From a virus, in IMG/VR virus record IMGVR_UViG_3300025168_000513, positions 1 to 27,578 of that record: a DNA stretch of 27,578 bases; one strand, 5' to 3'. The first letter of the stretch is position 1. Each line of letters begins with the position of its first letter. Position numbers and translations under genes: made by a program. The notes beneath the pieces were generated by a model that did no database searches, was not told where the DNA came from, and saw nothing but the letters and a program-made list of their open reading frames with translations. Below are positions 760-12,078 of the stretch, piece after piece.

Positions 760-968
760 AATTTGTATTAGCTTATACTATCTGTTCAGCAATAACAGGT
801 ATGTGTAATACACCAGCAGTACATCATACTACATTTAATACTTGGTCTGATTGTACTAAGCATGGTGCAATGGTAACTATAGGAGTTACAAATCAATATT
901 TAGAAAATTTTAATGACAAAAAATTATATGTTTCTTACTTTTGTACTGAAAAAGGAAAAGAAATATAA
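756..968 (+). CDS. small Cys-containing protein, possibly exported
   Basis: A 70-residue protein of unknown family. The N-terminus 'MKFVLAYTICSAITGMCN' is weakly hydrophobic and may be a signal or anchor. Four cysteines (residues 10, 17, 33 and 63) could form disulfides outside the cytoplasm. The start overlaps the previous stop as ATGA and the stop overlaps the next start as TAATG, so it is translated as part of the lysis operon. Export is a guess from composition; no lipobox of the classic LxxC kind is clear. Confidence 0.65.
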   Translation: MKFVLAYTICSAITGMCNTPAVHHTTFNTWSDCTKHGAMVTIGVTNQYLENFNDKKLYVSYFCTEKGKEI

Positions 969-1732
969 TGTTTAAAGGTCATAGAATAATAGTAATTGGA
1001 GATGCTCATGATTGTCCACATATAAAACAAGATAGATTTAAATGGATAGGGGAATATATTAAATCTGTTAAACCAGATTATATAATACAAATTGGTGATT
1101 GGGGTTCTTTTGATAGTTTAAGTTTTTTTCAAAAAAATTCTACTCAATCAGGTAAACTTAAAGATGATTATATGATGGACATAGAATCAATGCGTAACTC
1201 AATAGATTTATTAGACAAACATATAGATAACGATTTAATACCAAGACACGTTACTTTTGGTAATCATGAACAAAGAGTTTATAGATTTGAAGAAAATGTT
1301 CCAGAAATAGCAGGAATGATGAAAAAAGAATTACATGATTCTTTTGACAAACGTAAATGGGGAAGATCTCCTTATGGTGCATTTAAAAATATAGGTGGTG
1401 TATCATTTACACATTGTCCATTAAATATAATGGGTAAAGAATATGGTGGTAAAAACTGTGAAGTACAAGTAGCTAATGATGCTACAAATGACATTGTATT
1501 TGGACATACACATAAATTTAGAGATTGGAAAGCTCCTAAAATAGGAGATAAAAATTATGTAAGAATAGTAAACGTAGGATGTGCGTTGCCACATAACCAT
1601 GTAGAAGACTATGCTAAAATGAATTTAACTGGATGGTCTTGGGGTATAGTTGAACTTGGTATTTGGGATAACCATATACAAGAAAGTCAATTTATATCTA
1701 TGGATCGATTGGAAAAAACATATGATAACTAA
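968..1732 (+). CDS. calcineurin-like metallophosphoesterase
   Basis: A 254-residue protein with the full set of metallophosphoesterase motifs: 'GDAHDC' (D12, H14), 'GDWGS' (D44), 'GNHE' (99-101), a His in 'FTHCPL', and 'GHTH' near residue 180. These residues bind two metal ions and hydrolyse phosphomonoesters or diesters. The natural substrate cannot be read from sequence; nucleic acid ends, cyclic nucleotides or a phosphoprotein are all possible. It lies directly before the endolysin, whose start overlaps its last 11 nt. Location in the late lysis block, not among the DNA genes, is notable. Family assignment is secure. Confidence 0.9.
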   Translation: MFKGHRIIVIGDAHDCPHIKQDRFKWIGEYIKSVKPDYIIQIGDWGSFDSLSFFQKNSTQSGKLKDDYMMDIESMRNSIDLLDKHIDNDLIPRHVTFGNHEQRVYRFEENVPEIAGMMKKELHDSFDKRKWGRSPYGAFKNIGGVSFTHCPLNIMGKEYGGKNCEVQVANDATNDIVFGHTHKFRDWKAPKIGDKNYVRIVNVGCALPHNHVEDYAKMNLTGWSWGIVELGIWDNHIQESQFISMDRLEKTYDN

Positions 1733-2123
1733 TGGAAAAAATTTTGCTAAATATAATAATTTTAGCAGCAATGAATTTAAATGTAAATGTTGCCAACAAT
1801 TAAAAATTTCTGAAATTGTTTTAGATTTTTGTCAGGCTTGGCGTACACATCTTCAAGAAGGTGTTACAATTACTTCAGCATATAGATGTTCAGAACATAA
1901 TAGTAAAGTAAGTTCAACAGGTGATAGTGGTCCACATACTACAGGGTTTGCTGTAGACATTGGAACATCACCACAAAAACAATATGAGTTGTTAGACTTT
2001 GCTTTGCATTGGGATCCAAAACCTACAGGTATTGGAATAGCTAAAACTTTTACTCATCTTGATTGGTTGACTGTAGATGTTAATCAAAAATATGTAGTAA
2101 GACCTAACGTATGGAAATATTAA
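1722..2123 (+). CDS. M15 family peptidase, endolysin
   Basis: A 133-residue protein with the M15 (peptidase M15_3, VanY/L-Ala-D-Glu type) signature: 'SAYRC' (52-56), 'PHTTGFAVDI' with zinc ligands H72 and D79, and 'THLDW' with H112. Such enzymes cut peptide cross-links of the cell wall, so it is the likely endolysin. I chose the ATG at 1722 (MITNGKNF) and not the upstream in-frame ATG at 1650, because that one lies deep in the phosphoesterase gene and adds no domain. A four-Cys cluster near residues 21-37 (CKCC) is typical of phage M15_3 proteins. The holin-like gene follows 1 nt later. Confidence 0.9.
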   Translation: MITNGKNFAKYNNFSSNEFKCKCCQQLKISEIVLDFCQAWRTHLQEGVTITSAYRCSEHNSKVSSTGDSGPHTTGFAVDIGTSPQKQYELLDFALHWDPKPTGIGIAKTFTHLDWLTVDVNQKYVVRPNVWKY

Positions 2124-2124
2124 T

Positions 2125-2502
2125 ATGTGGTTGAGTGCAATAAAACTTGCAATGTCTGCAGGTTCTCATGTATATAAAAAACGACAGCAAACAAAAATGT
2201 TAATGGCTGATGCACAAATGCGTCATGCTGAAAAGATGAGCAATGGTGAACTTGAATATAAAGCGAAAATTATTGAGAGCAATGATAATGGTTGGAAAGA
2301 CGAATTTGTACTTATCCTTGTATCTATGCCTATTCTTTTATTGGGTTGGTCTGTTTTTTCTGACGATCCAGAAATACGTAATAAATTAGATTTATTTTTT
2401 GAATATTTTAAAAACCTACCTTATTGGTATCAAGCAATTTTCATAGGGGTAGTATCAGCAATTTATGGATTAAAAGGTGCTGATATTATGAAACGTAAAT
2501 GA
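2125..2502 (+). CDS. putative holin, two membrane segments
   Basis: A 125-residue protein. A basic, Met/Ala-rich N-terminal helix is followed by 'GWKDEF' and a hydrophobic span 'VLILVSMPILLLGWSVF' (about 63-79). A charged loop and a second span 'YQAIFIGVVSAIYGLKG' (about 102-118) come next, then a basic end. This order matches phage proteins commonly annotated as 3TM-type holins in marine podoviruses. It directly follows the endolysin, the usual holin place. It would form the membrane lesion that lets the M15 enzyme reach the wall. Function is inferred from layout and place. Confidence 0.7.
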   Translation: MWLSAIKLAMSAGSHVYKKRQQTKMLMADAQMRHAEKMSNGELEYKAKIIESNDNGWKDEFVLILVSMPILLLGWSVFSDDPEIRNKLDLFFEYFKNLPYWYQAIFIGVVSAIYGLKGADIMKRK

Positions 2503-2741
2503 AGAAAAAAGTTACCAAAAAAAAAAATACTCCTGCTATAATTGATGTATTAGTACAAGCTGTAAACGATATGAGTTCTAAACTACATAGAGTTCACAAA
2601 GATGTAGCTAATAATTCAAAAGATATAAATGAACTTAAGCAGCAAGTTAGTTTTAGTAAAGGTGCAGTTAAAGTTTTACTTTGGTTAGCAGGTGCGTTTA
2701 CAACTATTATAGCTGTATTCCAATGGTTAGGTATGCAATGA
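2499..2741 (+). CDS. small tail-anchored membrane protein, paralogue-like to 520-759
   Basis: An 80-residue protein. It has a lysine-rich N-terminus, a polar helix with 'NDMSSKLHRVHKDVANNSK', then 'SKGAVKVLLWLAGAFTTIIA' as one C-terminal membrane span. The junction 'KGAV.VL' also occurs at the same place in the 520-759 product ('KGAVAVLVFLG'), pointing to a duplication or a shared family. The start overlaps the holin stop (ATGA) and the stop overlaps the next start (ATGA). Likely an accessory lysis protein of XhlA-like layout; this is inference. Confidence 0.7.
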   Translation: MKKKVTKKKNTPAIIDVLVQAVNDMSSKLHRVHKDVANNSKDINELKQQVSFSKGAVKVLLWLAGAFTTIIAVFQWLGMQ

Positions 2742-2920
2742 CAAGAAAAACTAACACAGCTTTAATTGCATTGCTTGGTACAATCCTAATGGGTTTAGCT
2801 ACCTGGACTTTGGTCACACTTATAGAACTTCAATTAACAGTAACCATGATCCAATCTGACTTGATGTCTATTGATAAACAATTCGGTAGAGTTTATAATT
2901 TTATAGATTCAGTTAGATAA
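2738..2920 (+). CDS. small single-span membrane protein
   Basis: A 60-residue protein starting MTRKTNTALIALLG. I chose the ATG at 2738, which overlaps the preceding TGA as ATGA, over the longer reading from 2681 that lies inside the previous gene. One hydrophobic stretch ('ALIALLGTILMGLATWTLVT', residues 8-27) follows a basic N-terminus, then a soluble C-terminal helix. The layout fits a spanin-like inner-membrane component or a pinholin-like protein, but no lipoprotein partner is seen. It is the fourth membrane protein in this lysis block. Confidence 0.65.
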   Translation: MTRKTNTALIALLGTILMGLATWTLVTLIELQLTVTMIQSDLMSIDKQFGRVYNFIDSVR

Positions 2921-2925
2921 AAATA

Positions 2926-3141
2926 ATGTGGTGTATTATTTGGAAACAAAATAATCTTTATAAAATGTTTACAAATGTAATATTTGAATCTGAAACAAAA
3001 GCTATTGAATTTAGAGATAAACAGAAGTCTATGCGAAAAGCTCATGATTGTAGAGCTGTGCCTTATAATTACAATTACTTCTATGGAATGAGTAATTTAG
3101 ACCATTTAAATAGCTCTGAGAAGCTCTTAGATAGGCATTGA
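2926..3141 (+). CDS. hypothetical small protein
   Basis: A 71-residue protein of unknown function, last of the rightward lysis genes. It contains 'FESETKAIEFRDKQKSMRKAHDC', a pattern seen in small uncharacterised phage proteins. No good ribosome site precedes either the ATG at 2926 or the next in-frame ATG at 2965. The first is preferred for length and its 5-nt gap to the previous gene. It ends 53 nt before the convergent leftward gene. Confidence 0.6.
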   Translation: MWCIIWKQNNLYKMFTNVIFESETKAIEFRDKQKSMRKAHDCRAVPYNYNYFYGMSNLDHLNSSEKLLDRH

Positions 3142-3194
3142 AGACTAATTCGGTATCATTGGGTACAATAATAAAGATATTTATATACGTAGAT

Positions 3195-3467
3195 CTATGA
3201 AAGCTTATGACCTGTTTCTGTAAAATGTTCAGATTCTAGCTCAGCTAAAGCTCCTTGCAACAAATCTATAGCAAATTTCTTATTATTATAGCTTGATGCT
3301 ATTTGCATTACATTAGATACCAAAGCAACTTGAGCTGCATCTACACTTTTACCTTTAAGTAAGTCTATTGTTAATGTGTCGGCTATATTATCAAAAACAT
3401 TTATAACTTCATCATTAGAAATTTGACGTTTTTTAAATATATCTTTTAAGCATATTATTGTTTTCAT
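3195..3467 (-). CDS. hypothetical helical protein
   Basis: A 90-residue protein read from the ATG at 3467; a GTG at 3473 would add two residues. It is all-helical by appearance, with 'GKSVDAAQVALVSNVMQIASSYNN' and an acidic C-terminal part. No family is recognised. It is the last gene of the leftward region and is separated from SSB by about 330 nt of hairpin-rich non-coding DNA. A leftward terminator-like hairpin ends only about 43 nt upstream of its start, so its expression may depend on read-through or on its own promoter. Confidence 0.65.
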   Translation of the reverse strand: MKTIICLKDIFKKRQISNDEVINVFDNIADTLTIDLLKGKSVDAAQVALVSNVMQIASSYNNKKFAIDLLQGALAELESEHFTETGHKLS

Positions 3468-3509
3468 ATGCACAGGTTATTATGAAATTCGGAAGCTCAC
3501 ACCTCACAT

Positions 3510-3591
3510 AAAAAAAAGTAAGCAACTCAGACAGGATAAACCATTGGTGGTATTTATCATTACACCATACTGGACTGCGTGGTTGCTTACT
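3510..3591 (-). terminator. leftward terminator-like long hairpin
   Basis: On the minus strand AGTAAGCAAC (3591-3582) pairs perfectly with GTTGCTTACT (3526-3517), followed by U8 (3517-3510). The 55-nt interior folds further: ATAAA-CCA with TGG-TTTAT around a CCAA loop (3536-3557, one 2-nt bulge), and short CAG/CTG pairs. The whole is one long imperfect hairpin with a U-tract, as in a Rho-independent terminator, though the arm is unusually long. It lies between SSB and the last leftward gene. Confidence 0.6.
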
Positions 3592-3796
3592 CACATAATT
3601 TTTAATTAAGCAGCAGGACTTTAGCTGTATAGAAGACTAGCATTCTATATCAGCAGGTTCTAGCTTACCTATTTGTTATCACAAATTCTATACTGTAGGC
3701 GCAATCAATTCAAAGTATTCATACGCCTACAGTTAACAACAGATGTAGTTACATACTACGTGTTAATTATTTTAAGGTAAATTAACTTAACCTTAT
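3510..3796 (-). ncRNA. candidate structured RNA, string of hairpins after SSB
   Basis: This 290-nt gap holds no convincing gene but many inverted repeats in a row. They are TAAGGT/ACCTTA (3774-3779 with 3791-3796), GTAGT/ACTAC (3745-3749 with 3755-3759), a perfect 10-bp stem 3692-3701 with 3724-3733, and ATTTGT/ACAAAT with a 4-nt loop (3671-3686). An 11-bp stem follows, 3624-3634 with 3643-3654 (one bulged base), and then a perfect 10-bp stem 3517-3526 with 3582-3591. The last is followed, on the minus strand, by eight U. The order and the U-run suggest a leftward RNA whose 3' end is the terminator. No known RNA family was recognised. Confidence 0.5.
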
Positions 3797-4197
3797 TAAA
3801 ACTGGTCATCAAAATCATCTGATGGTTTAGACTGTTGAGCAGTCTTTGTACCAGATGGTTTGTCGCCAACCATTCTAATGCTTCCTGTAAATCGAGGTAT
3901 AACAACCTCAGTTACAATTCTGTTTTGATCGTTAGAATCTTTAAATTGTCTAGTTTCTATTTCACCTTCAACAAACAATTGAGTTCCACTCTTAGCATAC
4001 TTTTGCATAGTATCTGCAAGTCTTGGATCCCATACTACAATTTTATGCCATGTAGTTTTTTCTTGCCATTCATTATCTTTAGTCTTGTACTTTTTATTAG
4101 TAGCTAAAGATAGGTTAGCAAAAGATTCACCTTTTTTAGTTTGTTTTATTTCTGGGTCTGCTCCCAGTCTTCCTATCAGCATCACTTTGTTTAGCAT
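3796..4197 (-). CDS. ssb: single-stranded DNA-binding protein
   Basis: A 133-residue SSB. The OB fold opens with 'MLNKVMLIGRLGADPEIK', continues with 'TTWHKIVVWDPRLADTMQKY' and 'GTQLFVEGEIETRQFKD', and ends in a short Ser/Lys linker and the acidic tip 'SDDFDDQF'. The terminal Phe and acids are the standard docking tail for replication and repair proteins. It coats single-stranded DNA during phage replication and recombination. AAAGGAG lies 8 nt before the ATG. Its first 62 nt overlap the end of the annealing-protein gene in another frame, so the two are co-expressed with the exonuclease as a recombination set. Confidence 0.95.
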   Translation of the reverse strand: MLNKVMLIGRLGADPEIKQTKKGESFANLSLATNKKYKTKDNEWQEKTTWHKIVVWDPRLADTMQKYAKSGTQLFVEGEIETRQFKDSNDQNRIVTEVVIPRFTGSIRMVGDKPSGTKTAQQSKPSDDFDDQF

Positions 4198-4693
4198 TAT
4201 TTAACTCCTTTGTGTTAATTACTGTTATGTTATTTGGTTTAGCATCAAACTTAGCTTTCATTTCTTGTACATATTTGTTGTTATCAAACAAACCAAGAAA
4301 CACATCAGCACTGATACCTAGATGACTAAAACCTTTGGTCATAGCATCTGTCATTGCTTTTTTTGGTGCTTCATCATCTAGTCCACCATTCTTTTTGTAC
4401 AATGCTTGTACTGATGATACTGGACCAAATTGATTCCATTCTAAGCTAGGTTCTTTTCTGTATCTTATTGATACTTCTGCAAATACATTTTTATCTGTAT
4501 AAGTATAATCAACATTATAAGCCCAACCTAAACCTACTGGACCAAACATACCAGTCATAACTTGTATCTGATACATTGGATCTATAGTTGTAAGTTCTTT
4601 ACCACCAAACTTTGTAAATGCTTTTGTATATTTTGGATTAGTATTTTTTACTTGATCCCATATCCAAAAGTTTTCTTCTTTTCCTGTTCTCAT
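4136..4693 (-). CDS. putative single-strand annealing protein (Rad52/Sak-like)
   Basis: A 185-residue protein. An N-terminal half carries 'WIWDQV', 'GFGLGWAYN'-type aromatic strands (here 'GPVGLGWAYNVDY', 52-64) and 'VSIRYR'. The helix 'DDEAPKKAMTDAMTKGFSHLGISADVFLG' follows at 106-134. That last pattern (A-KKA-TDA--K----LG) is characteristic of Rad52, DUF1071 and Erf-type annealing proteins. It would anneal strands exposed by the neighbouring YqaJ exonuclease, with SSB as partner. The exact superfamily cannot be settled by eye. AAAGG precedes the ATG and TAATG couples it to the winged-helix gene. Confidence 0.75.
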   Translation of the reverse strand: MRTGKEENFWIWDQVKNTNPKYTKAFTKFGGKELTTIDPMYQIQVMTGMFGPVGLGWAYNVDYTYTDKNVFAEVSIRYRKEPSLEWNQFGPVSSVQALYKKNGGLDDEAPKKAMTDAMTKGFSHLGISADVFLGLFDNNKYVQEMKAKFDAKPNNITVINTKELNNAKQSDADRKTGSRPRNKTN

Positions 4694-5025
4694 TATATAC
4701 CTTTCTCTGTGTATTGATTATTAATATGAGTTTTACTAACTACATAAACATATGCAGAACGCTTACTAGCATTCTTACGTTTATCTTTTCTTTCTATCTT
4801 ATCTTGTTTATATAGTTCAGTTACTCTTGGTCTTACAGTAAATGAAGATAACCCTAATAGGTCAGCTACTTCATCTGCTGTTGCTCCAAAGTTACCTTTG
4901 TTTGCAATAACTTGAAACACTTTAGATCTTATAGTATCAGCACCTTCTTTTAATAACTCGGCAGCTTCAACTGATGTATCAACTTTTTGACTGCCTGGTG
5001 AGTAAGGGTACGATTTCTCTACCAT
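4693..5025 (-). CDS. winged-helix DNA-binding protein
   Basis: A 110-residue protein. Residues about 33-85 form a winged helix: 'RSKVFQVIANKG' then 'ATADEVADLLGLSSFTVRPRVTELYKQDKI' and a basic wing 'RKDKRKNASKRSAYVYVV'. The recognition helix is 'SSFTVRPRVTEL'. It overlaps the exonuclease C-terminus by 47 nt and is coupled to the annealing gene. It may regulate the recombination genes or act as an accessory DNA-binding factor; neither can be told from sequence. AAAGGAG lies about 8 nt before the ATG. Confidence 0.8.
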   Translation of the reverse strand: MVEKSYPYSPGSQKVDTSVEAAELLKEGADTIRSKVFQVIANKGNFGATADEVADLLGLSSFTVRPRVTELYKQDKIERKDKRKNASKRSAYVYVVSKTHINNQYTEKGI

Positions 5026-5602
5026 TGTTATGCTCCTTTATCTGTTCGTTAAAATTATTAAAATCAACAAAATCTGGTGGGGGTGTTTTTGTTTGTACTA
5101 AATGCCAAAACAAAATTAATGCTGATTCTAATTGTTTTTGAAATTCTTTATCTGGAAGTACTTCAGCTAATCCCCATTTCATATTACCAAAGAACATAGA
5201 TAAATACATTTTATCTGCACCATATATCATTAGATAATGTTGTATCTGTGCTTTGTATTTTTCTGCTGTTTTGATTTCATTAGTAAAAGCGTTGGTATGC
5301 TTACATTCTAGCAATGCCTTTTTTTCTTTGAGGACACCATCTATATTGCAATACATAAATGGATATTTTTTAGATTTAATAAATACTTGTTCACCTACAA
5401 CTTTAATACCTGTTTGTTTTTCAAACCAGCGAATATTAAAATCTTCGGTATGCACTCCCATTTGTACTGGTAAAACATTAGAGAGATCATCTGATTCTTT
5501 CTCTCCAATCTTTTCTAAATACAAATCGTGCCAATCACCATTGTATAACCTGGTGGCATCTGATCCTCCAATGCCTGTCTTACGATCAAAGTCTTTGTTC
5601 AT
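4979..5602 (-). CDS. YqaJ-type recombination exonuclease
   Basis: A 207-residue protein of the PD-(D/E)XK fold, lambda-exonuclease/YqaJ branch. Visible motifs are 'GIGGSDATRL' (10-19), the early acid in 'MGVHTE' (E53), 'CNIDGV' (D88), 'LLECK' (E99, K101) and 'AQIQHYLMIYG' (119-128), which supplies the Q--YL motif. Such enzymes degrade one strand from duplex ends to leave single strands for annealing. With the annealing protein and SSB downstream in the same operon it forms a Red-like set. Length is normal for the family. AAAGGACTAA precedes the ATG. Confidence 0.92.
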   Translation of the reverse strand: MNKDFDRKTGIGGSDATRLYNGDWHDLYLEKIGEKESDDLSNVLPVQMGVHTEDFNIRWFEKQTGIKVVGEQVFIKSKKYPFMYCNIDGVLKEKKALLECKHTNAFTNEIKTAEKYKAQIQHYLMIYGADKMYLSMFFGNMKWGLAEVLPDKEFQKQLESALILFWHLVQTKTPPPDFVDFNNFNEQIKEHNNGREIVPLLTRQSKS

Positions 5603-5617
5603 TTAGTCCTTTCTGTT

Positions 5618-5842
5618 TTATTCTTTAGGGAAGTTCATTCTGTTATCTGGAGATTCTACATTTTTATGATTTTTTTTTTCTATGTCTTGAATCATATTAT
5701 ATATTTCAGTATAGATCCATCTAAGTTCTTGTATTCCTAACAAACCTGCAACTGTTTTAATAGTTTGCATTCTTTTTTGTTGTAAAGCTCTATCTTTATT
5801 TTGTGATTGTATTTCTTGTATTGTTTCATCTTGTTCTGGCAT
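5618..5842 (-). CDS. hypothetical helical protein
   Basis: A 74-residue protein of unknown family. It is Gln/Lys-rich and looks helical throughout, with 'VAGLLGIQELRWIYTEIYNMIQDIEKK' as the central part. The ATG follows GGAATAAATA, and the start touches the stop of the upstream gene, so the two are coupled. It sits just upstream of the exonuclease, which suggests co-expression with the recombination set, but nothing in it shows a function. Confidence 0.7.
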   Translation of the reverse strand: MPEQDETIQEIQSQNKDRALQQKRMQTIKTVAGLLGIQELRWIYTEIYNMIQDIEKKNHKNVESPDNRMNFPKE

Positions 5843-6135
5843 TATTTATTCCTGTATATATTTCGGAAGTTTAAACCTACACGAGTTGCACCTTTACGTT
5901 TTATATCTTCCCATTTTTTTTGTTCTTGTTTATTGTGTTTTCTTCTTAAACTATCTAATTGTTTTAATATTTTTTGATTTATTTTACCTGCAAATAATTT
6001 GGTAGCAAAGTCTGTATATACTTTATCATTATATTCAATATTTTTATAAAATTTTAACAATGACATCCACCATGCTTGTTGTCTTACATGATAAGGTGTA
6101 TAATCTATATTAACTTTGCGTTTCTGTTTTATCAT
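5842..6135 (-). CDS. hypothetical basic protein
   Basis: A 97-residue lysine-rich protein. It has 'DYTPYHVRQQAWWMSLLKFYKN' near the N-terminus and 'QKILKQLDSLRRKHNKQEQKKWEDIKRKG' in the middle. The high net positive charge fits nucleic acid contact, but no fold is recognised. Its start lies 26 nt inside the upstream MazG-like gene and no good ribosome site is seen, so translation probably depends on coupling. Confidence 0.65.
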   Translation of the reverse strand: MIKQKRKVNIDYTPYHVRQQAWWMSLLKFYKNIEYNDKVYTDFATKLFAGKINQKILKQLDSLRRKHNKQEQKKWEDIKRKGATRVGLNFRNIYRNK

Positions 6136-6421
6136 TAGTAGATGTTTTTTCTTGTAAACTTTTTAGAGCTGCTTTAACTTTATCTGAATCATTATCAAAC
6201 TGTTGAAAAATTGATTTCATTTTAGTTAAATAGTGAACAGCATCTAATAGTTCTTCAATTAATTCATCTGCCCATTCGGACATAGGTCTTTTGTTATCTG
6301 ACATAGTTTTACCAAACTTTTCCATGCCTTGCATATGTCTATCAATTGTTTTTTTAATTACGTCATTGACGATAGAATCGTCTGTTATATCACCAGGATT
6401 AAAATCTGGATTAACTGCCAT
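6110..6421 (-). CDS. MazG-like / all-alpha NTP pyrophosphohydrolase-like protein
   Basis: A 103-residue helical protein. The stretch 'RHMQGMEKFGKTMSDN' followed by 'WADELIEELLDAVHYLTKM' (50-68) is the pattern found in small phage MazG-related and dNTP-diphosphohydrolase-associated proteins. The acids in 'ELIEELLD' match the second metal-binding motif. A clear first EExxE motif is missing, so activity is uncertain. If active it would hydrolyse nucleotide triphosphates, for pool control or to blunt host alarmone signalling. GAGGTAAAAC precedes the ATG. The C-terminal tail is Ser/Thr-rich and disordered. Confidence 0.55.
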   Translation of the reverse strand: MAVNPDFNPGDITDDSIVNDVIKKTIDRHMQGMEKFGKTMSDNKRPMSEWADELIEELLDAVHYLTKMKSIFQQFDNDSDKVKAALKSLQEKTSTNDKTETQS

Positions 6422-6653
6422 GTTTTACCTCTTTCTTTTGTATTATAATTTCGGCATCAAGTGCTTCTGCCCAACAACAGAATAACCAGCCACTTGGTTT
6501 TCTTATACCACACTCCCATTTTGATACAAGTCCCTTGGCTACACCTAATATTTCATCCATTTCTAATTGAGAAATACCCATGTTTTTTCTTATTTTAACA
6601 AATTGTGGTATTACTTGATTATGAAATTGTTTACCTAGTGCTTTATTAGACAT
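6411..6653 (-). CDS. XRE-family transcriptional regulator, second copy
   Basis: An 80-residue protein beginning MSNKALGKQF. A helix-turn-helix spans about 19-56: 'VKIRKNMGISQLEMDEILGVAKGLVSKWECGIRKP'. I chose the ATG at 6653; an in-frame TTG at 6689 exists, but it lies inside a strong -35 element and has no ribosome site. No Shine-Dalgarno is seen before 6653 and the promoter at 6662-6689 would start the RNA almost at the ATG, so the mRNA may be leaderless, as for lambda cI from PRM. It probably acts as a repressor or Cro-like switch with the adjacent XRE protein. Confidence 0.8.
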   Translation of the reverse strand: MSNKALGKQFHNQVIPQFVKIRKNMGISQLEMDEILGVAKGLVSKWECGIRKPSGWLFCCWAEALDAEIIIQKKEVKHGS

Positions 6654-6661
6654 AAACACTA

Positions 6662-6689
6662 AATATATGTATATTTTAATAGCTGTCAA
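6662..6689 (-). promoter_or_regulatory. sigma70-like promoter for the second XRE gene
   Basis: On the minus strand TTGACA (6689-6684), a 16-nt spacer, then TATATT (6667-6662). The -35 is a perfect consensus match and the -10 matches 5 of 6. The stop codon of the upstream XRE gene lies inside the -35. Transcription would begin about 6654-6656, one to three nt before the ATG at 6653. This is the best promoter match noticed in the leftward region. Confidence 0.6.
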
Positions 6690-6946
6690 CCAGATATGGT
6701 AGTACTATCTACAACTGTATGTGGAAGAAAATAAGCTAATGGTTTTTTAGTATATTGAGCTATTCTATCTAGCTTTTCTATACTAACTTTATTAGTTGCT
6801 TTTTCATATTTTTGAATTTGTTGAAAAGTGCAACCAGCAGCTTTTGCTAATTCAGTTTGCGTCATAAGTCTATGACCAAAAGAATCAGTTCTAGCTTGTT
6901 TTATTCTTAATCCTATAAAAAAATATAGTTCACTATTTTCTGACAT
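6686..6946 (-). CDS. XRE-family transcriptional regulator (cI-like)
   Basis: An 86-residue helix-turn-helix protein: 'LRIKQARTDSFGHRLMTQTELAKAAGCTFQQIQKYEKATNKVSIEKLDRIAQYTKKPLAYFLP', written here only to show the order, covers residues 13-75. The recognition helix 'TFQQIQKYEK' and the ending 'PLAYFLP' are like alphaproteobacterial XRE regulators, which supports an alphaproteobacterial host. There is no C-terminal cleavage or oligomerisation domain. AAAGG lies about 9 nt before the ATG. The gene ends within the promoter of the second XRE gene, so transcription through it could affect that promoter. Confidence 0.88.
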   Translation of the reverse strand: MSENSELYFFIGLRIKQARTDSFGHRLMTQTELAKAAGCTFQQIQKYEKATNKVSIEKLDRIAQYTKKPLAYFLPHTVVDSTTISG

Positions 6947-7254
6947 TATATATTACCTTTCCTTCTTGATGCTTCTAATGTTCTCCATATTTCTATTTTC
7001 ATTTCTGCAGTTCTTCTTTTATTTTTTAATTGCAGAAGTTCAATATTAAAGTCATTAATTTTCTTAATTGAAGTTACATAACTTGCAGAAGCGTAATAAC
7101 TTTCGGTAGCTTTAGACACAGCTACATCTGATTGAGTTACATAAGCTCCTTTGAAATGTTTAATCATATCTCGCTGATATTCTACCTCTGCCATAAGTTT
7201 AGCAAAGGTAGTATCAGTTTCAGCTAGATAATTTATTTCATTATCTATATCCAT
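6946..7254 (-). CDS. hypothetical helical protein
   Basis: A 102-residue protein of unknown family, helical and polar. Landmarks are 'DIDNEINYLAETDTTFAKLMAEVEYQRDMIK' at the N-terminus and 'LLQLKNKRRTAEMKIEIWRTLEASRRKGN' at the end, likely coiled-coil segments. Its stop overlaps the start of the cI-like gene (TAATG) and it begins 1 nt after the gene upstream, so it is a regular member of the leftward operon. Confidence 0.7.
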   Translation of the reverse strand: MDIDNEINYLAETDTTFAKLMAEVEYQRDMIKHFKGAYVTQSDVAVSKATESYYASASYVTSIKKINDFNIELLQLKNKRRTAEMKIEIWRTLEASRRKGNI

Positions 7255-7255
7255 A

Positions 7256-7849
7256 TTATTTACTTTCTAATTGTAGAAACTCTTTAGGTGCAGCTACTGG
7301 AACACCAGATGCTTTGAATGTATTACCTAAATGTTTCCATACATCTTTTATATCTCTACCAGAATATAAAACATTTTTAGCTTGTTCTTCAAGCAAATCT
7401 AAATCATGTTTTACTTTAAACTTAGGTAATTTTTCTACTGACTTTTTAGTTTCTTGTTTACAAGCTCTAGACAATGTAGTTAAAACATCATCATAATCTT
7501 TGATGCTTATGTCCATTGTGTCATTGTAGTTACCTTTCCATCCTCTAATAGAAGCCCAAGACTGAAGTTTTTGTTCAAGCTCTATTTTTTTATTTGTTTT
7601 AGCTGCAAACAATTTAGATTCATAAGATTCTTTTTGTTCTTGAAACTTTTTAAGTTTCATATCAGCTTCTTTGTAAGCTTTAATTTGATTTTTAAGACCT
7701 AATCTTTCAACAAACTTTGAGTAATTTTTATCAGTTTGTTTTTGAGTAGCAGCTTCTATTTCTGATTCAATGTTTTGTCTTCTGTTTCTAAACTTGTCAT
7801 GTATAAGTGTATCAAGATAGTTTAGTTCATTACTTCTTATTGGTTTCAT
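7256..7849 (-). CDS. hypothetical coiled-coil protein
   Basis: A 197-residue protein starting MKPIRSNELN. A longer reading from 7906 overlaps the small gene 7830-7952; the ATG at 7849 has AAAGG a few bases upstream and overlaps that gene by only 20 nt. Residues about 20-105 are a long charged helix rich in Lys, Glu and Gln, followed by 'WASIRGWKGNYNDTMDIS' and a C-terminal part with 'DVWKHLGNTFKASGVPV'. The family is not recognised. The layout resembles phage proteins that scaffold or bind DNA, but no motif proves it. Confidence 0.7.
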   Translation of the reverse strand: MKPIRSNELNYLDTLIHDKFRNRRQNIESEIEAATQKQTDKNYSKFVERLGLKNQIKAYKEADMKLKKFQEQKESYESKLFAAKTNKKIELEQKLQSWASIRGWKGNYNDTMDISIKDYDDVLTTLSRACKQETKKSVEKLPKFKVKHDLDLLEEQAKNVLYSGRDIKDVWKHLGNTFKASGVPVAAPKEFLQLESK

Positions 7850-7952
7850 CTTTACCTTTCTTTTTTGGTTTAGTTGTTTTAGTGGTAACAGTTTTTTGAT
7901 TAGCAAAACTATTTACCCATTTAGTGTACTCTTTCTTTTGTTTAGGTGTCAT
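7830..7952 (-). CDS. small basic protein, 40 residues
   Basis: A 40-residue reading frame, MTPKQKKEYTKW..., rich in Lys and Thr with the tail 'KPKKKGKDETNKK'. Its ATG overlaps the upstream stop as ATGA and its 3' end overlaps the next gene by 20 nt, the normal packing of this operon. Without it there would be a 100-nt hole in an otherwise gap-free gene string. The first half looks folded and the second half disordered. Function unknown. Confidence 0.65.
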   Translation of the reverse strand: MTPKQKKEYTKWVNSFANQKTVTTKTTKPKKKGKDETNKK

Positions 7953-8368
7953 TTTTCTACACCTAATCTTTCAAAGATATTTTCTTTTTTATCTTTAAAA
8001 ACATTACCAGACTTTGATTCATCACTATATTCTGATGTTGTAAAATCAGCACTATCATCAAAGTCACCTGTTTCTGTATTAATAGTAAGTGTACCATTAA
8101 CAGAATATTCACCTGCAAATGAATACCATTGATTTAATCTACCTTCATCAGCATAAACTAATGCTTCAAAGTTATCGTCATCAAAGTCTTCATCTTCATC
8201 AAGATCTAAAGTTTTAGTCCAATCTACTGTAACAGATTTGTCATCTGCATAAAATACTGGTCTATCAAATGATCCTTCATCATTACCACCAGAATATTCT
8301 ATTTCTACTTTAGTAATACCTTGTGTGTGTAATGCTCTTAATACGTTTTCAATTGTCTTGTCCGACAT
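7949..8368 (-). CDS. DUF6878-like acidic protein
   Basis: A 139-residue, very acidic protein. The opening 'RALHTQGITKVEIEYSGGNDEGSFDRP' and the later 'WYSFAGEYSVNGTLTINTETGDFD' resemble DUF6878-type proteins, which sense-match as 'V-V-F-G-GDSG' plus 'GAYG-FTFD'. The match is from memory and weak. A run of Asp and Glu (54-66, 'DLDEDEDFDDDNF') could mimic DNA, as in some anti-restriction proteins; that is speculation. AAAGG precedes the ATG. It is the neighbour of the DUF6915-like gene. Confidence 0.65.
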   Translation of the reverse strand: MSDKTIENVLRALHTQGITKVEIEYSGGNDEGSFDRPVFYADDKSVTVDWTKTLDLDEDEDFDDDNFEALVYADEGRLNQWYSFAGEYSVNGTLTINTETGDFDDSADFTTSEYSDESKSGNVFKDKKENIFERLGVEK

Positions 8369-8693
8369 TTCTATAACCTTTCATTGTCCATTTGGTTGGC
8401 TTAATTAAAATTGCCCAATCGTAAAAACTTGGAATCCAACCCATGTCTTCAACGATATGTCTTTCTGCAATTAATCTGACAGGAACTATTTTACCATCAG
8501 AATTTTTTATTGATGTGCCAAACTTTTGTTCGGCAGCAAAACAACCTTCAGCATGGTGTCGCAAAGCTCTGTGACTCCAATGTGCAATAATCTTTTTTGA
8601 TTCATCAAACCAGTCATGTATAGGTTGGTAATCTTCTGGTTTACCACCCCATTTTTTAACCGATGATACTGAATGATAATAACAATTAGCCAT
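8349..8693 (-). CDS. DUF6915 family protein
   Basis: A 114-residue protein matching the DUF6915 pattern: 'YYHSVSSVKKWGGKPEDY', 'HDWFDESK', 'HRALRHHAEGCFAAEQKFG', 'NSDGKIVPVRLIAERHIVEDMG' and 'IPSFYDW'. The family is frequent in phages and mobile DNA and its function is unknown; conserved His and acid residues (HRALRHH, AERHIVED) could bind metal. It overlaps the DUF6878-like gene by 20 nt, so the two are probably made together. AAGGAAATTA precedes the ATG. Confidence 0.8.
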   Translation of the reverse strand: MANCYYHSVSSVKKWGGKPEDYQPIHDWFDESKKIIAHWSHRALRHHAEGCFAAEQKFGTSIKNSDGKIVPVRLIAERHIVEDMGWIPSFYDWAILIKPTKWTMKGYRNVGQDN

Positions 8694-9049
8694 TAATTTC
8701 CTTTCATTGCATTAACTTCATCTTCAGTTAATACTTTTGGTTTAAACTTTTGTTTTTTAACAATAGCAACAGTACCAGCTATGTAATCACCAGGAATACA
8801 AGATCTTTTAGTTTTGTCTTGCCAGTTGTACCAAGCTTGAGTTGCTCTTTTATTTGGATAATTTAAATTATTTAATTTACTTTCTTCATCCATGTGCATT
8901 TCAAAAGTACCTAATTCTTTATTGTAACCTTTTAGAATTTGAATTAAATCACATCCAATAAGTTTATATAATTCTGAAAATGTAGGCTTATTTTCAAACA
9001 CATGAATGTCTTCATTGTCATTATCTTTCCATAGTATTACATTATACAT
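8693..9049 (-). CDS. DUF3846-like protein
   Basis: A 118-residue protein. 'FSELYKLIGCDLIQILKGYN', 'MHMDEESKLNNLNYPNKRAT' and 'DYIAGTVAIV' follow the order of DUF3846 proteins (I-E---L, then DE-GKL--LP-N--AT, then D-I-GT-). That family is common on phages and plasmids and is sometimes found with anti-restriction genes; its function is unknown. I chose the second ATG (9049) because AAAGG lies 6 nt before it, while the ATG at 9055 touches the ribosome site. The basic tail 'KKQKFKPKVL' is a lineage feature. Confidence 0.7.
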   Translation of the reverse strand: MYNVILWKDNDNEDIHVFENKPTFSELYKLIGCDLIQILKGYNKELGTFEMHMDEESKLNNLNYPNKRATQAWYNWQDKTKRSCIPGDYIAGTVAIVKKQKFKPKVLTEDEVNAMKGN

Positions 9050-9257
9050 TGTCATCCTTTTGTTCTGCTTTATCTAAATAATCTACTACTAATGATTTAA
9101 CTAAAGTAGCTTTGTAAAGATTATGTTTAATACAATAGTTATGTAATCTATTATAATTATCTTCACCTAATGATAATCCAAACATTCCATATTTAATTGT
9201 ATTTTGATTTCTATTTGTTCTTTTTATTGCACTCGTTAATAATTCTTCTTCAGTCAT
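9042..9257 (-). CDS. hypothetical protein, possibly ribbon-helix-helix
   Basis: A 71-residue protein. 'KYGMFGLSLGEDNYNRLHNYCIKHNLYKATLVKSLVVDYLDKA' reads like a short strand, then a helix, turn and second helix. That is the order of ribbon-helix-helix DNA-binding proteins ('-LS---Y--L---A---G-S---L---A---YL'). The match is only in layout. It overlaps both neighbours by 8 nt. If correct it would be another regulator or a relaxosome-like accessory. Confidence 0.55.
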   Translation of the reverse strand: MTEEELLTSAIKRTNRNQNTIKYGMFGLSLGEDNYNRLHNYCIKHNLYKATLVKSLVVDYLDKAEQKDDNV

Positions 9258-9459
9258 TTTTTTCCTTTGTTATTGTTTGTTTAATAAATTTTACATAGTG
9301 ATTACAAATATCTATGCTTAAGCCTATAAAATATAATGCCCAACTTATTCCTGATAATGTTGCAATTAATATATATTTCCAGAATCCAAAAAACTTAGGT
9401 ATGACACCTTCTACATTTGTGCGTAGATTTTTAGCTTTTTCTTTGATAACGGACTTCAT
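9250..9459 (-). CDS. small single-span membrane protein
   Basis: A 69-residue protein with a basic N-terminus, one hydrophobic segment ('YILIATLSGISWALYFIGLSI', about 29-49) and a basic C-terminus. Early-region phage membrane peptides like this often act on the host envelope, or in superinfection exclusion; no motif tells which. Its ATG overlaps the stop of the upstream broken frame as ATGA, and AAGG lies about 10 nt upstream. Confidence 0.65.
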   Translation of the reverse strand: MKSVIKEKAKNLRTNVEGVIPKFFGFWKYILIATLSGISWALYFIGLSIDICNHYVKFIKQTITKEKND

Positions 9460-9612
9460 ATAGCTATACCTTTCATAGTTATTTCTTTCTTTCTGTTTAT
9501 ATAAGCTATCTCATTTCTTGGGATAGCTGCAGCTTTTTTTTCATACTTAGCTCCAGGAATAAACTTAGCTTAACATCTCTGGATACGCATTAGTCTTAGT
9601 TAAGTACTGCAT
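9456..9612 (-). pseudogene. 51-codon gene split by a +1 frameshift
   Basis: On the minus strand an ATG at 9612 opens MQYLTKTNAYPEML and stops one codon later at TAA (9567-9565). If one A at 9570 is skipped (TTA-A-GCT), the frame continues for 37 sense codons, AKFIPGAKYEKKAAAIPRNE and on to ...ITMKGIAI. It ends in TGA at 9458-9456, overlapping the next ATG as ATGA. The second part begins directly after a stop and has no start of its own, yet has normal codon use and ends in the operon's usual coupling overlap. The natural reading is one gene with an extra base: a mutation, an assembly error, or programmed shifting. Confidence 0.6.
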
Positions 9613-9614
9613 AT

Positions 9615-9678
9615 GCGTTGCTTATATCCTACAAGTGCAACGCTAAACTTGCTGTTTAGATTGAGGGAGGGAGCAATC
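9615..9678 (-). repeat. three short inverted repeats before the frameshifted gene
   Basis: In the 73-nt gap there are GCGTTGC/GCAACGC (9615-9621 with 9637-9643), CTAAAC/GTTTAG with a 5-nt loop (9643-9648 with 9654-9659) and GATTG/CAATC (9659-9663 with 9674-9678). ATGCGT at 9614-9619 can instead pair with ACGCAT at 9585-9590, and GGATA (9581-9585) with TATCC (9625-9629). The first stem ends just upstream of the ATG at 9612, so it could affect translation. Function not known. Confidence 0.4.
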
Positions 9679-9685
9679 GTTTCAG

Positions 9686-9901
9686 CTAATCCTCAACACT
9701 AGGATTCTTTAATTCATATAAACCAATTAAATGTTTTAATCTTTCATTGAAATCATAACATTCAATATCTTTAGTTTGTCTATGATTTAATGTTTCTTGT
9801 TCAAGAAAATATAAATGTAGTATTTCTTGTAAATCAAATATCTCTTTAGAATTTATCTTGATGTTTAGATACTTTGTAATCGTATCTTGCTTCTTCTGCA
9901 T
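9686..9901 (-). CDS. hypothetical small protein
   Basis: A 71-residue protein, MQKKQDTITKYLNIKIN..., with a helical, Leu/Glu-rich middle ('IFDLQEILHLYFLEQETLNHRQTK') and an acidic end. GAGGAG lies about 10 nt before the ATG. It overlaps the upstream gene by 56 nt in another frame, more than most pairs here, but the ribosome site supports the start. No family recognised. Confidence 0.6.
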   Translation of the reverse strand: MQKKQDTITKYLNIKINSKEIFDLQEILHLYFLEQETLNHRQTKDIECYDFNERLKHLIGLYELKNPSVED

Positions 9902-10370: not shown

Positions 10371-10865
10371 TTATTTACCTAGAGCTTCTTTTAGTCTAGT
10401 CATATTGTATTCTTTCATCTGTTTTGTTACATCTTTGGCAGGTGTTTTGCTTTGAGGCATAAACTTCTTACCAAATGTAACTTCATAACATAAATGAAAT
10501 TCATTTAATATTGATTCAGCTCGTCTGATATTTACCTGTTGTGCATCACGTCTAAAGATTAACTTGTCAACATTTAGCTTAGTTATCTCATTACCAACAT
10601 CTTCTCGTAACGCAGTCTGCATAAGATCTTTTGTCTTATCTAGACTTTTGATACACTGTTCATGGTGTCTTTGAAATACACCTATGATACTATTAGCATT
10701 CCATTCAGCTAACATAGACCAATCTGGATGATCTGCAAATGGTGATATAACTGTATTGAAAAAGCTAGTAACACCAGCTTTCATATCAATACTATCTAAT
10801 ACATCTTCCATATCATTTAGTCTGCTATCTGAATAATCTTGTTGATTTAATTCACTACCCATCAT
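10371..10865 (-). CDS. hypothetical protein, 164 residues
   Basis: A helical, acidic-to-neutral protein of unknown family. Landmarks are 'DYSDSRLNDMEDVLDSIDMKAG' near the N-terminus, 'LAEWNANSIIGVFQRHHEQCIKSLDKTKDLM' in the middle and 'MTRLKEALGK' at the end. AAAGGAG lies 6 nt before the first of two adjacent ATG codons. It is followed by a strong terminator and preceded by a 56-codon gene that overlaps it by 11 nt, so these two form the transcript nearest to the early/late junction and are likely the first made. Confidence 0.75.
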   Translation of the reverse strand: MMGSELNQQDYSDSRLNDMEDVLDSIDMKAGVTSFFNTVISPFADHPDWSMLAEWNANSIIGVFQRHHEQCIKSLDKTKDLMQTALREDVGNEITKLNVDKLIFRRDAQQVNIRRAESILNEFHLCYEVTFGKKFMPQSKTPAKDVTKQMKEYNMTRLKEALGK

Positions 10866-11025
10866 ACTTAACTCCTTTTGTTATATTATTAATTTCGCTT
10901 GACAGCTCAACAACTTTATCCCAGTCATTTTTAACTATCGCTTCTTCCTTTAACATTGATAACTCAACAACTCTTTTTCTATCGTGTTCATCTGTTATCA
11001 ACTCATAGTATGTAACGTATTCCAT
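10855..11025 (-). CDS. small helical protein, 56 residues
   Basis: A 56-residue reading frame, MEYVTYYELITDEHDRKR..., then 'VELSMLKEEAIVKNDWDKVVELSSEINNITKG'. GAGG lies 6 nt before the ATG, and its 3' end overlaps the next gene by 11 nt while carrying that gene's AGGAG. Two amphipathic helices with many acids are visible. It is the first leftward gene after the divergent junction and would be expressed very early. Family unknown. Confidence 0.7.
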   Translation of the reverse strand: MEYVTYYELITDEHDRKRVVELSMLKEEAIVKNDWDKVVELSSEINNITKGVKYDG

Positions 11026-11048: not shown

Positions 11049-11078
11049 ATATTAACCAGTGCCTAACGCACGTGGTAA
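11049..11078 (-). promoter_or_regulatory. possible leftward early promoter
   Basis: On the minus strand TTACCA (11078-11073), an 18-nt spacer and TAATAT (11054-11049). Match to sigma70 is moderate. Transcription would begin near 11042 and give a leader of about 17 nt with GAGG before the ATG at 11025. The -35 lies within the long inverted repeat. The same AT stretch read on the plus strand gives TATATT (11048-11053), so it could serve both directions. Confidence 0.3.
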
Positions 11079-11211
11079 CGCTTAGTAAACAAGGGGAGAA
11101 CTCACCAGTCAACAGCTTGACACCTTTAGGTGTGGCGTTCATGTCCCTCGTGGACATTACGCCCTGTTGAATGGATGAGGGGATTCCTTGTTATACTTTA
11201 GCGTTCACGTG
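11069..11211. ncRNA. long nested inverted-repeat structure at the early/late junction
   Basis: Outer helix: CACGTG (11069-11074) with 11206-11211, AACGCT (11077-11082) with AGCGTT (11200-11205), AGTA (11084-11087) with TACT (11094 side: 11194-11197), and AACAAGG (11088-11094) with CCTTGTT (11186-11192). That is 23 pairs with three small bulges. Inside, CTCACC (11101-11106) pairs with GG-a-TGAG (11173-11179) and CAACAG (11110-11115) with CTGTTG (11164-11169). This encloses two hairpins: ACACC/GGTGT with loop TTTA (11120-11133) and GGCGT..ATGTCC/GGACAT..ACGCC (11134-11163). GC content is far above the genome average. It could be an RNA, a replication origin or a packaging site; strand undecided. 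Confidence 0.6.
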
Positions 11212-11226
11212 TATAGGACTTCTCTT

Positions 11227-11299
11227 GCGACCAGGATCGTTACCCTTTAGGGACAAGACCGAAGGGCTTGGGTGCAAAGCACTAGAGCCTGTAAGTCGC
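11227..11299. ncRNA. three-hairpin domain closed by GCGAC/GTCGC
   Basis: GCGAC-c-AGG (11227-11235) pairs with CCT-gtaa-GTCGC (11288-11299). Inside lie three small hairpins in a row: CCC-TTTA-GGG (11243-11252), CAAG-a-CC-GAA-GG-g-CTTG (11254-11270) and GTGC-AAA-GCAC (11272-11282). The layout resembles a four-way junction of about tRNA size, but acceptor, T-loop and anticodon features are missing. It follows the long helix at 11069-11211 by 15 nt and shares its high GC content, so the two are probably one element. Confidence 0.5.
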
Positions 11300-11354: not shown

Positions 11355-11383
11355 TTGACAGGGACAAATTAAATAATTACGAA
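11355..11383 (+). promoter_or_regulatory. possible rightward late promoter
   Basis: TTGACA at 11355-11360 is a perfect -35. The best-spaced -10 (17 nt later) is only TACGAA (11378-11383), a poor match; TATTAG at 11386-11391 is better but too far away. If used, it would drive the terminase and head genes from just before the ATG at 11411. It lies downstream of the structured elements, which would then not be part of this mRNA. Confidence 0.3.
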
Positions 11384-11410: not shown

Positions 11411-11785
11411 ATGAAAGACGATCTAACAGAGAAACAACGAGCCTTAGTAGATACAATAGTAGCTACAGGGTGTAGTATAACAGAAGCTGCTAAAACAGCA
11501 GGATATTCAACAGCTATTAGCAAAGATTCAGCGAGAGTAAGTGCTTCTCGCACACTACGTTTACCAAAGGTACAACAGTATATGCAACAACGGATTGCAC
11601 AAACTCTTGGACTTGGCGCAGTAAGTGCGAGTAAAAGACTTATCGAGCTATCTACAGGAGCTAGAAGTGAATACGTTCAGCTAGAAGCTAGCAGAGATAT
11701 TCTCGATAGAGTAGGATTGAGGACACCAGACAAGGTATCACACAATATACAGGGGGAGATTAAAATTAATATAGATCTAACGTGA
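11411..11785 (+). CDS. terS: terminase small subunit
   Basis: A 124-residue protein with the typical layout: 'LTEKQRALVDTIVATGCSITEAAKTAGYS' (N-terminal helix-turn-helix, 5-33), 'RVSASRTLRLPKVQQYMQQRI' (linker), then an oligomerisation helix and 'LRTPDKVSHNIQGEIKINIDL'. The 'A---AGYS' turn and 'PKV--YM--R' are standard in terminase small subunits. It binds the packaging site and hands DNA to the large subunit. AAGG lies 5-8 nt before the ATG. It is the first gene of the late rightward region, 1043 nt upstream of the large subunit. Confidence 0.88.
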   Translation: MKDDLTEKQRALVDTIVATGCSITEAAKTAGYSTAISKDSARVSASRTLRLPKVQQYMQQRIAQTLGLGAVSASKRLIELSTGARSEYVQLEASRDILDRVGLRTPDKVSHNIQGEIKINIDLT

Positions 11786-11795
11786 GGTGTTGGTA

Positions 11796-11860
11796 CGCAC
11801 CCACACATTTAGAATCGTGAGATTCGGAGGGTGGGGGCGAAAATCATCAGCCATAGCTGA
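11796..11860 (+). repeat. two hairpins downstream of terS
   Basis: First structure: CACCC (11798-11802) with GGGTG (11829-11833), and CG/CG outside it (11796-11797 with 11838-11839), enclosing GAATC-GTGA-GATTC (11812-11825). Second: TCAGC-CATA-GCTGA (11847-11860). GC-rich in an AT-rich genome and just after the terS stop. No U-run follows, so it is not an ordinary terminator. A packaging (cos or pac) site or a processing signal is possible. The rest of 11786-11900 shows nothing coding. Confidence 0.45.
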
Positions 11861-11900
11861 CGAGTGGACTATCACAGACAACAGGGTTTAAAAAAGTACG

Positions 11901-12035
11901 ATGGCAAAGCAGAAGTTTACACATTTCATACCAAGAGATAAACCTAAGAAAAGAAAAGGCGTTCATACAAAGAGCCAAAACAAATCAGCCAAAAGACAAA
12001 AGAAACAACTTCGCTACAAAGGACAAGGGCGATAG
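11901..12035 (+). CDS. small basic protein, 44 residues
   Basis: A 44-residue frame: MAKQKFTHFIPRDKPKKRKG..., ending 'KKQLRYKGQGR'. It is strongly basic, with Lys and Arg in about two fifths of positions, so it likely binds nucleic acid or acts near packaging. Small proteins with this 'FTHF-PRDKPKKRKG' opening occur near terminases in marine podoviruses, as I recall. No strong ribosome site is seen. It is the only plausible gene in the 11786-12106 gap. Confidence 0.65.
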   Translation: MAKQKFTHFIPRDKPKKRKGVHTKSQNKSAKRQKKQLRYKGQGR

Positions 12036-12078
12036 ATTGCTTAAGTGCGTTTCAAAAAATTTTTTAGTTCTATAAGGT

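Follow-up and report, generated by a model that had tools for sequence, protein, structure and literature searches.

The DNA analysed here raises the question of what a long nested helix does at the point where the early and late genes of a pelagiphage diverge, and whether it works as RNA or as DNA. The window, meaning the whole stretch of DNA that was analysed, is a virus record of 27,578 bp which is probably a fragment. As the first-pass annotation had noted, the helix is located in a gene-free stretch beside terS, inside a gap of 385 nt between these two genes:

10855-11025, minus strand: first gene of the leftward early block, 56 aa (open reading frame; the orthologue adjoins the element in most near relatives)
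11411-11785, plus strand: terS, the first late gene (Pfam Terminase_2, E 4.5e-13)

Scanning of the early proteins detected matches to SSB, exonuclease and recombinase families, and none to a polymerase, primase or replicative helicase. No tRNA was found by a tRNA scan. The 164-aa early protein adjoining the element (10371-10865) is conserved in relatives, lacks a family match and is predicted to be all-helical. Directly 3' of terS, a second G-rich noncoding stretch (11786-11900), possibly structured, is followed by a small basic ORF (11901-12036), conserved in relatives and overlapping DNA matches to the cultured pelagiphages HTVC100P, HTVC024P and HTVC028P. Cumulative GC skew has its maximum at about 3 kb and its minimum at about 11 kb, both of them switches in gene direction and thus confounded with the coding strand.

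Folding of both strands has recovered the nested helix at 11069-11211, where it had first been described, and has placed it beyond chance. With RNA parameters, the MFE of 11060-11220 is -72.4 kcal/mol on the plus strand (z -6.8) and -68.6 on the minus strand (z -7.3), while DNA parameters give -44.7 (z -9.1) and -42.8 (z -8.5), respectively; no shuffle reaches these values on either strand under either energy model. The outer stem extends to about 11062-11217, and the structure, designated M1, is composed of the following parts:

11062-11217, plus strand: M1, a long imperfect stem closing a three-way junction, with its core at 11069-11211 (folding z, covariation and R1 matches)
11120-11133, plus strand: inner hairpin 1 of M1, 5 bp with a TTTA loop (fold; double changes in 4 of 6 pairs, helix 5)
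11134-11163, plus strand: inner hairpin 2 of M1 (fold; double changes in 8 of 12 pairs, helix 6)

Relatives were gathered through a TerS scan, which yielded 80 viral loci, and two motif scans, which added more. In an alignment of M1 from 13 relatives, standard pairs occupy 95.3% of cells and 24 of the 47 pairs have changed on both sides, a number reached by none of 500 shuffles (mean 12.6); sliding the partners as a control left only 1-11 pairs with double changes. Compensatory changes among relatives, which had been set as the test of function, are therefore present, and by this measure M1 is a functional, conserved paired structure. A covariance model built from M1 (R1) detects further relatives beside other terS genes, with E values down to 6e-17, including clades left out of training. 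In other relatives, M1 is replaced by unrelated sequence forming the same kind of long, topped stem. In the cultured pelagiphage Hodr (L081, locus 2640-2900), whose TerS is related, unrelated sequence at this position likewise forms a stem that is long and nearly perfect, without M3 (see below). The element was found in none of the phage isolates that were checked. Outside the clade, M1 gave no R1 match in 93 plasmid and inovirus loci, no plasmid BLAST match and no match in three cultured phages. An Rfam search with the window and its relatives returned nothing usable: no family reached its gathering score, and none matched at E up to 1-5.

The helix had been regarded as a lone element. It is instead the first module of a longer conserved region, a composite upstream of terS in the pelagiphage clade that is structured to about 11300 and has the order early gene, M1, (M2), M3, late promoter. 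Besides M1, the window holds the following elements of this region, two of them within the arms of M1:

11227-11299, plus strand: M3, a cloverleaf-like element common to conjugative plasmids and filamentous phages (R3 match)
11355-11383, plus strand: late promoter upstream of terS, TTGACA (11355-11360), 17 nt, TACGAA (11378-11383), conserved
11084-11112, minus strand: promoter-like site directed at the early genes from within the left arm of M1, TTGACT (11112-11107), 17 nt, TTTACT (11089-11084)
11167-11197, plus strand: promoter-like site in the right arm of M1, TTGAAT (11167-11172), 19 nt, TATACT (11192-11197)

The M2 module is a hairpin ending CCCATAGC...GCGTATGGG and is present, together with M3, between M1 and terS in most relatives, where its length is about 100-290 nt. 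It is absent from the window and from the near-identical closest relative (L138), as seen when 11212-11226 is compared with L006, L115 and L116; this absence is a natural deletion inside the composite. Some relatives have kept M1 and are missing M3.

Promoters had been proposed on either side of the helix, and the late one stands. Its TTGACA, located between M3 and terS, is conserved in nearly all distinct relatives, and a -10 hexamer of TATAAT, TACAAT or TACTAT follows at 16-17 nt in several clades, making this a sigma-70-type promoter. Transcription of terS from this site therefore excludes M1-M3. The early side is doubtful, the candidate site being inside the left arm of M1 itself: among leftward sites in the 560 bp before terS it scores highest (p about 0.02 against shuffled arms), and it is weak or absent in divergent M1 copies. 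The site in the right arm (p about 0.01) is likewise not significant in several divergent copies.

The two strands of the composite are not equivalent. The plus strand gives the better fold in 23 of 24 M1 sequences and in all 35 M2 sequences, although the relatives are not independent and these counts overstate the number of events. Per sequence, M1 has 4.9 G-T pairs on the plus strand vs 1.1 on the other. This wobble bias does not discriminate between RNA and single-stranded DNA (ssDNA), because M3 as a whole has no strand asymmetry by MFE (9.2% vs 9.5%) while its second hairpin is asymmetric (15 GT vs 4 AC). The preference for the plus strand bears on the suggestion that the locus acts as double-stranded DNA, either as divergent early and late promoters arranged as an inverted repeat, with a possible cruciform, or as a theta-type origin with ordinary protein sites. 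The outward-facing promoter-like sites in both arms of M1 would fit such an element, as would the cumulative GC-skew minimum at 11 kb, though gene direction switches there too. Nonetheless, the strand asymmetry of M1 and M2 would not be expected if only double-stranded DNA mattered, the covariation extends to the inner hairpins and the real late promoter is a separate downstream site, so that an element of this kind is considered improbable. The cruciform originally put forward would, by itself, leave the bias towards one strand unexplained.

The M3 module connects the pelagiphages to very different replicons. A model built from plasmid and filamentous-phage copies only, without pelagiphage sequence (R3), has a sole match in the window, at 11227-11299 (72.8 bits, E 3.8e-15); the R3 loci were gathered with a word pattern derived from pelagiphages, and the similarity to the window thus arises partly by selection. 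The R3 matches in the leading regions of R388 (two copies, E about 5e-9) and of plasmid F (two copies, E 5e-6 and 1e-4) came without pattern selection. The F copies, which occupy 58093-58172 and 63481-63560 and run opposite to the leading genes, fail the word pattern. In the reverse direction, a model from pelagiphages only (R2) scores inovirus M3 copies at E 1.6e-10. The first matches to the word pattern were two filamentous-phage contigs, and the pattern occurs in at least 117 stretches in bacterial genomes as well as in many inoviruses, among them one of Synechococcus and Pf1, where it precedes gene V. Most of the initially unrecognised viral M3 loci that were checked encode Zot or Rep proteins. 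BLAST searches with two M3 copies matched 59 and 487 plasmid records, with 33 and 338 of these being conjugative, the latter corresponding to about 70%. There is no Rfam entry for M3, no match was found in ColIb-P9, a plasmid that also has Frpo-like sequences, and none was convincing in the 1-100 kb of pTiC58 that were searched, a range outside the tra region. Several M3-like copies, three of them strong and on one strand and others weaker, occur at 826-9691 in a 13.5-kb contig (L302, IMGVR 3300006954_000008) that has integrase, Erf and methyltransferase genes.

This distribution is difficult to reconcile with a packaging (pac or cos) site, which had been suggested from the position of the helix. 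Adjoining terS is what such a site would do, but nothing else ties the helix to TerS, M3 is found on plasmids and filamentous phages that lack TerS, and neither the strand bias nor the partner modules have a packaging rationale. A role of this kind is very improbable.

A strict rule relates M3 to the genes around it. At plasmid loci, the genes encoding SSB (17 of 17), ArdC-like proteins (18 of 18), DUF736 proteins (12 of 12) and ParB (7 of 7) run opposite to M3, with nine of the ArdC-like genes on each side of it, while TraG is encoded upstream on the same strand as M3 (9 of 9). Where M3 is present in multiple copies, these share a single orientation. At inovirus loci, all 29 of 29 SSB genes lie downstream of M3 and on its strand. 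Leading-region genes are encoded with the transferred strand as template (PMC11541004), which puts M3 on the strand that plasmids transfer and on the one that filamentous phages package. M3 is thus a widespread structured element (loci L172-L381) of F, R388, rhizobial and sphingomonad plasmids and filamentous phages that follows the strand which becomes single-stranded, and the pelagiphage M3 is this same element of transferred and viral strands. Such a rule is not needed by a regulatory RNA and is needed by an element working in ssDNA, which argues for action as a DNA strand.

The rule weighs against a separate RNA of an unknown class, which had been proposed for the helix and which survives as the main rival. 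This would be a plus-strand noncoding RNA, transcribed towards terS and folding as M1-M2-M3, that could prime replication in the manner of ColE1 RNA II or affect host machinery in trans. The compensatory changes would suit an RNA, as would the plus-strand bias with its G-U enrichment. A promoter-like site on the plus strand is present in the right arm of M1, and other structured phage RNAs have a similarly ornate layout and size (here 200 to over 600 nt). GOLLD, ROOL and other ornate phage noncoding RNAs likewise have large, intricate and conserved structures in phages, but the pelagiphage element differs from them in having no Rfam match. Among 28 relatives, moreover, there is as a rule no sigma-70 promoter 5' of M1 on the plus strand that is better than shuffles, and M3 on plasmids keeps to one strand whichever side the genes lie, as expected of a DNA-strand element. 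An RNA is therefore unlikely, if less so than the double-stranded and packaging alternatives, and the DNA-level or origin-like role that had also been raised is the better reading, supported by the strand rule on plasmids.

Among known systems, the composite works most like the single-strand promoters of conjugative plasmids and the ssi sites of ssDNA phages. Frpo1 and Frpo2 provide early expression from ssDNA in vivo (PMC9849209). In F, 470 nt separate each M3 from the beginning of the leading gene that comes next, and the DNA in between forms the long Frpo stem-loop, better on the M3 strand. Both Frpo elements thus have a strand-specific imperfect stem-loop 5' of a gene start and then M3 at the outer end, with genes, ssb among them, templated by the folded strand. 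In R388, the distances from the M3 copies to gene starts are 525 and 600 nt, one of the genes being ArdC-like. Across plasmids as a whole, an unshuffled strand comparison shows strong folding and strand bias in the 200 nt 5' of M3 and not on the 3' side. The order gene, structured stem-loop, M3 is common to F, R388 and the pelagiphage, where the early genes run leftward and M1, the stem-loop favoured on one strand, is next to genes templated by that strand. There are also differences. The Frpo stems have no sequence similarity to M1, the flanking M3 being what both have in common, and the Frpo stem of F is about 330 nt long vs about 150 nt for M1 with its three-way junction. F is conjugative, while the pelagiphage is a tailed dsDNA phage in which promoter activity is putative. 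Because no homology links the stems and promoter activity is only putative, the composite is not classed as a member of the Frpo/ssi group.

Among ssDNA phages, the top R2 match in phiX174 is on the viral strand at 2296-2366 and is weak (10.3 bits, E 0.36), so that homology is not established, and R3 has no match in this phage at E up to 10. These positions fall in the F-G intergenic region, which holds the primosome assembly site. This ssi site shares small GAA-loop hairpins with the pelagiphage element, and the R2 match, not significant by itself, hints at PriA-type loading. The G4-type complementary-strand origin (DnaG) is alike in being structured on the viral strand, where it initiates complementary-strand synthesis; the M3 models gave no match at the annotated G4 origin.

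On balance, and by a small measure, the evidence favours an Frpo/ssi-like element that acts as a single strand and heads the early operon as a promoter, a primer or both. In single-stranded plus-strand DNA, M1 would fold into a hairpin that resembles a promoter and heads the leftward early operon, for which this plus strand is also the template. M3, just 3' of M1, would form the outer end of the element, where host proteins of priming or of the primosome probably land. The plus single strand produced by replication could then be used by host RNA polymerase or primase, either to transcribe the early genes (SSB, exonuclease, recombinase) or to start the complementary strand. The phage plausibly depends on host priming, given that no polymerase, primase or replicative helicase was matched by the early proteins that were scanned. 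The promoter step is the weak one because the hexamers in M1 are not significant in several divergent copies. Exposure of the plus strand may come about through rolling-circle or strand-displacement replication, or through extrusion from supercoiled DNA. Counting against this reading, no ssDNA stage is known for tailed dsDNA phages of this clade, M1 has no sequence match beyond the clade, some relatives with M1 are missing M3, and ColIb-P9 gave no M3 match.

In the open-access literature searched and in Rfam, no description was found of such a composite element in a tailed dsDNA phage, or of M3 itself. The phage aside, the outer end of Frpo-type promoters, as found in F and R388, gains a sequence handle in M3, which makes the host protein that reads incoming ssDNA directly testable in E. 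coli. The hosts of pelagiphages are among the most abundant bacteria in the sea. A broader and more doubtful proposal, offered tentatively, is that a tailed dsDNA phage of SAR11 makes a plus-strand single-stranded genome and reads its early genes, replicates, or both, from a folded promoter of the plasmid type, with M3 recruiting a universal host factor in all its carriers, namely F, R388, Ti-type and sphingomonad plasmids, Pf1-like phages and pelagiphages. The Frpo/ssi-like reading itself, if right, would extend single-strand gene control from conjugation to a clade of tailed phages and would imply a single-stranded stage in their life cycle.
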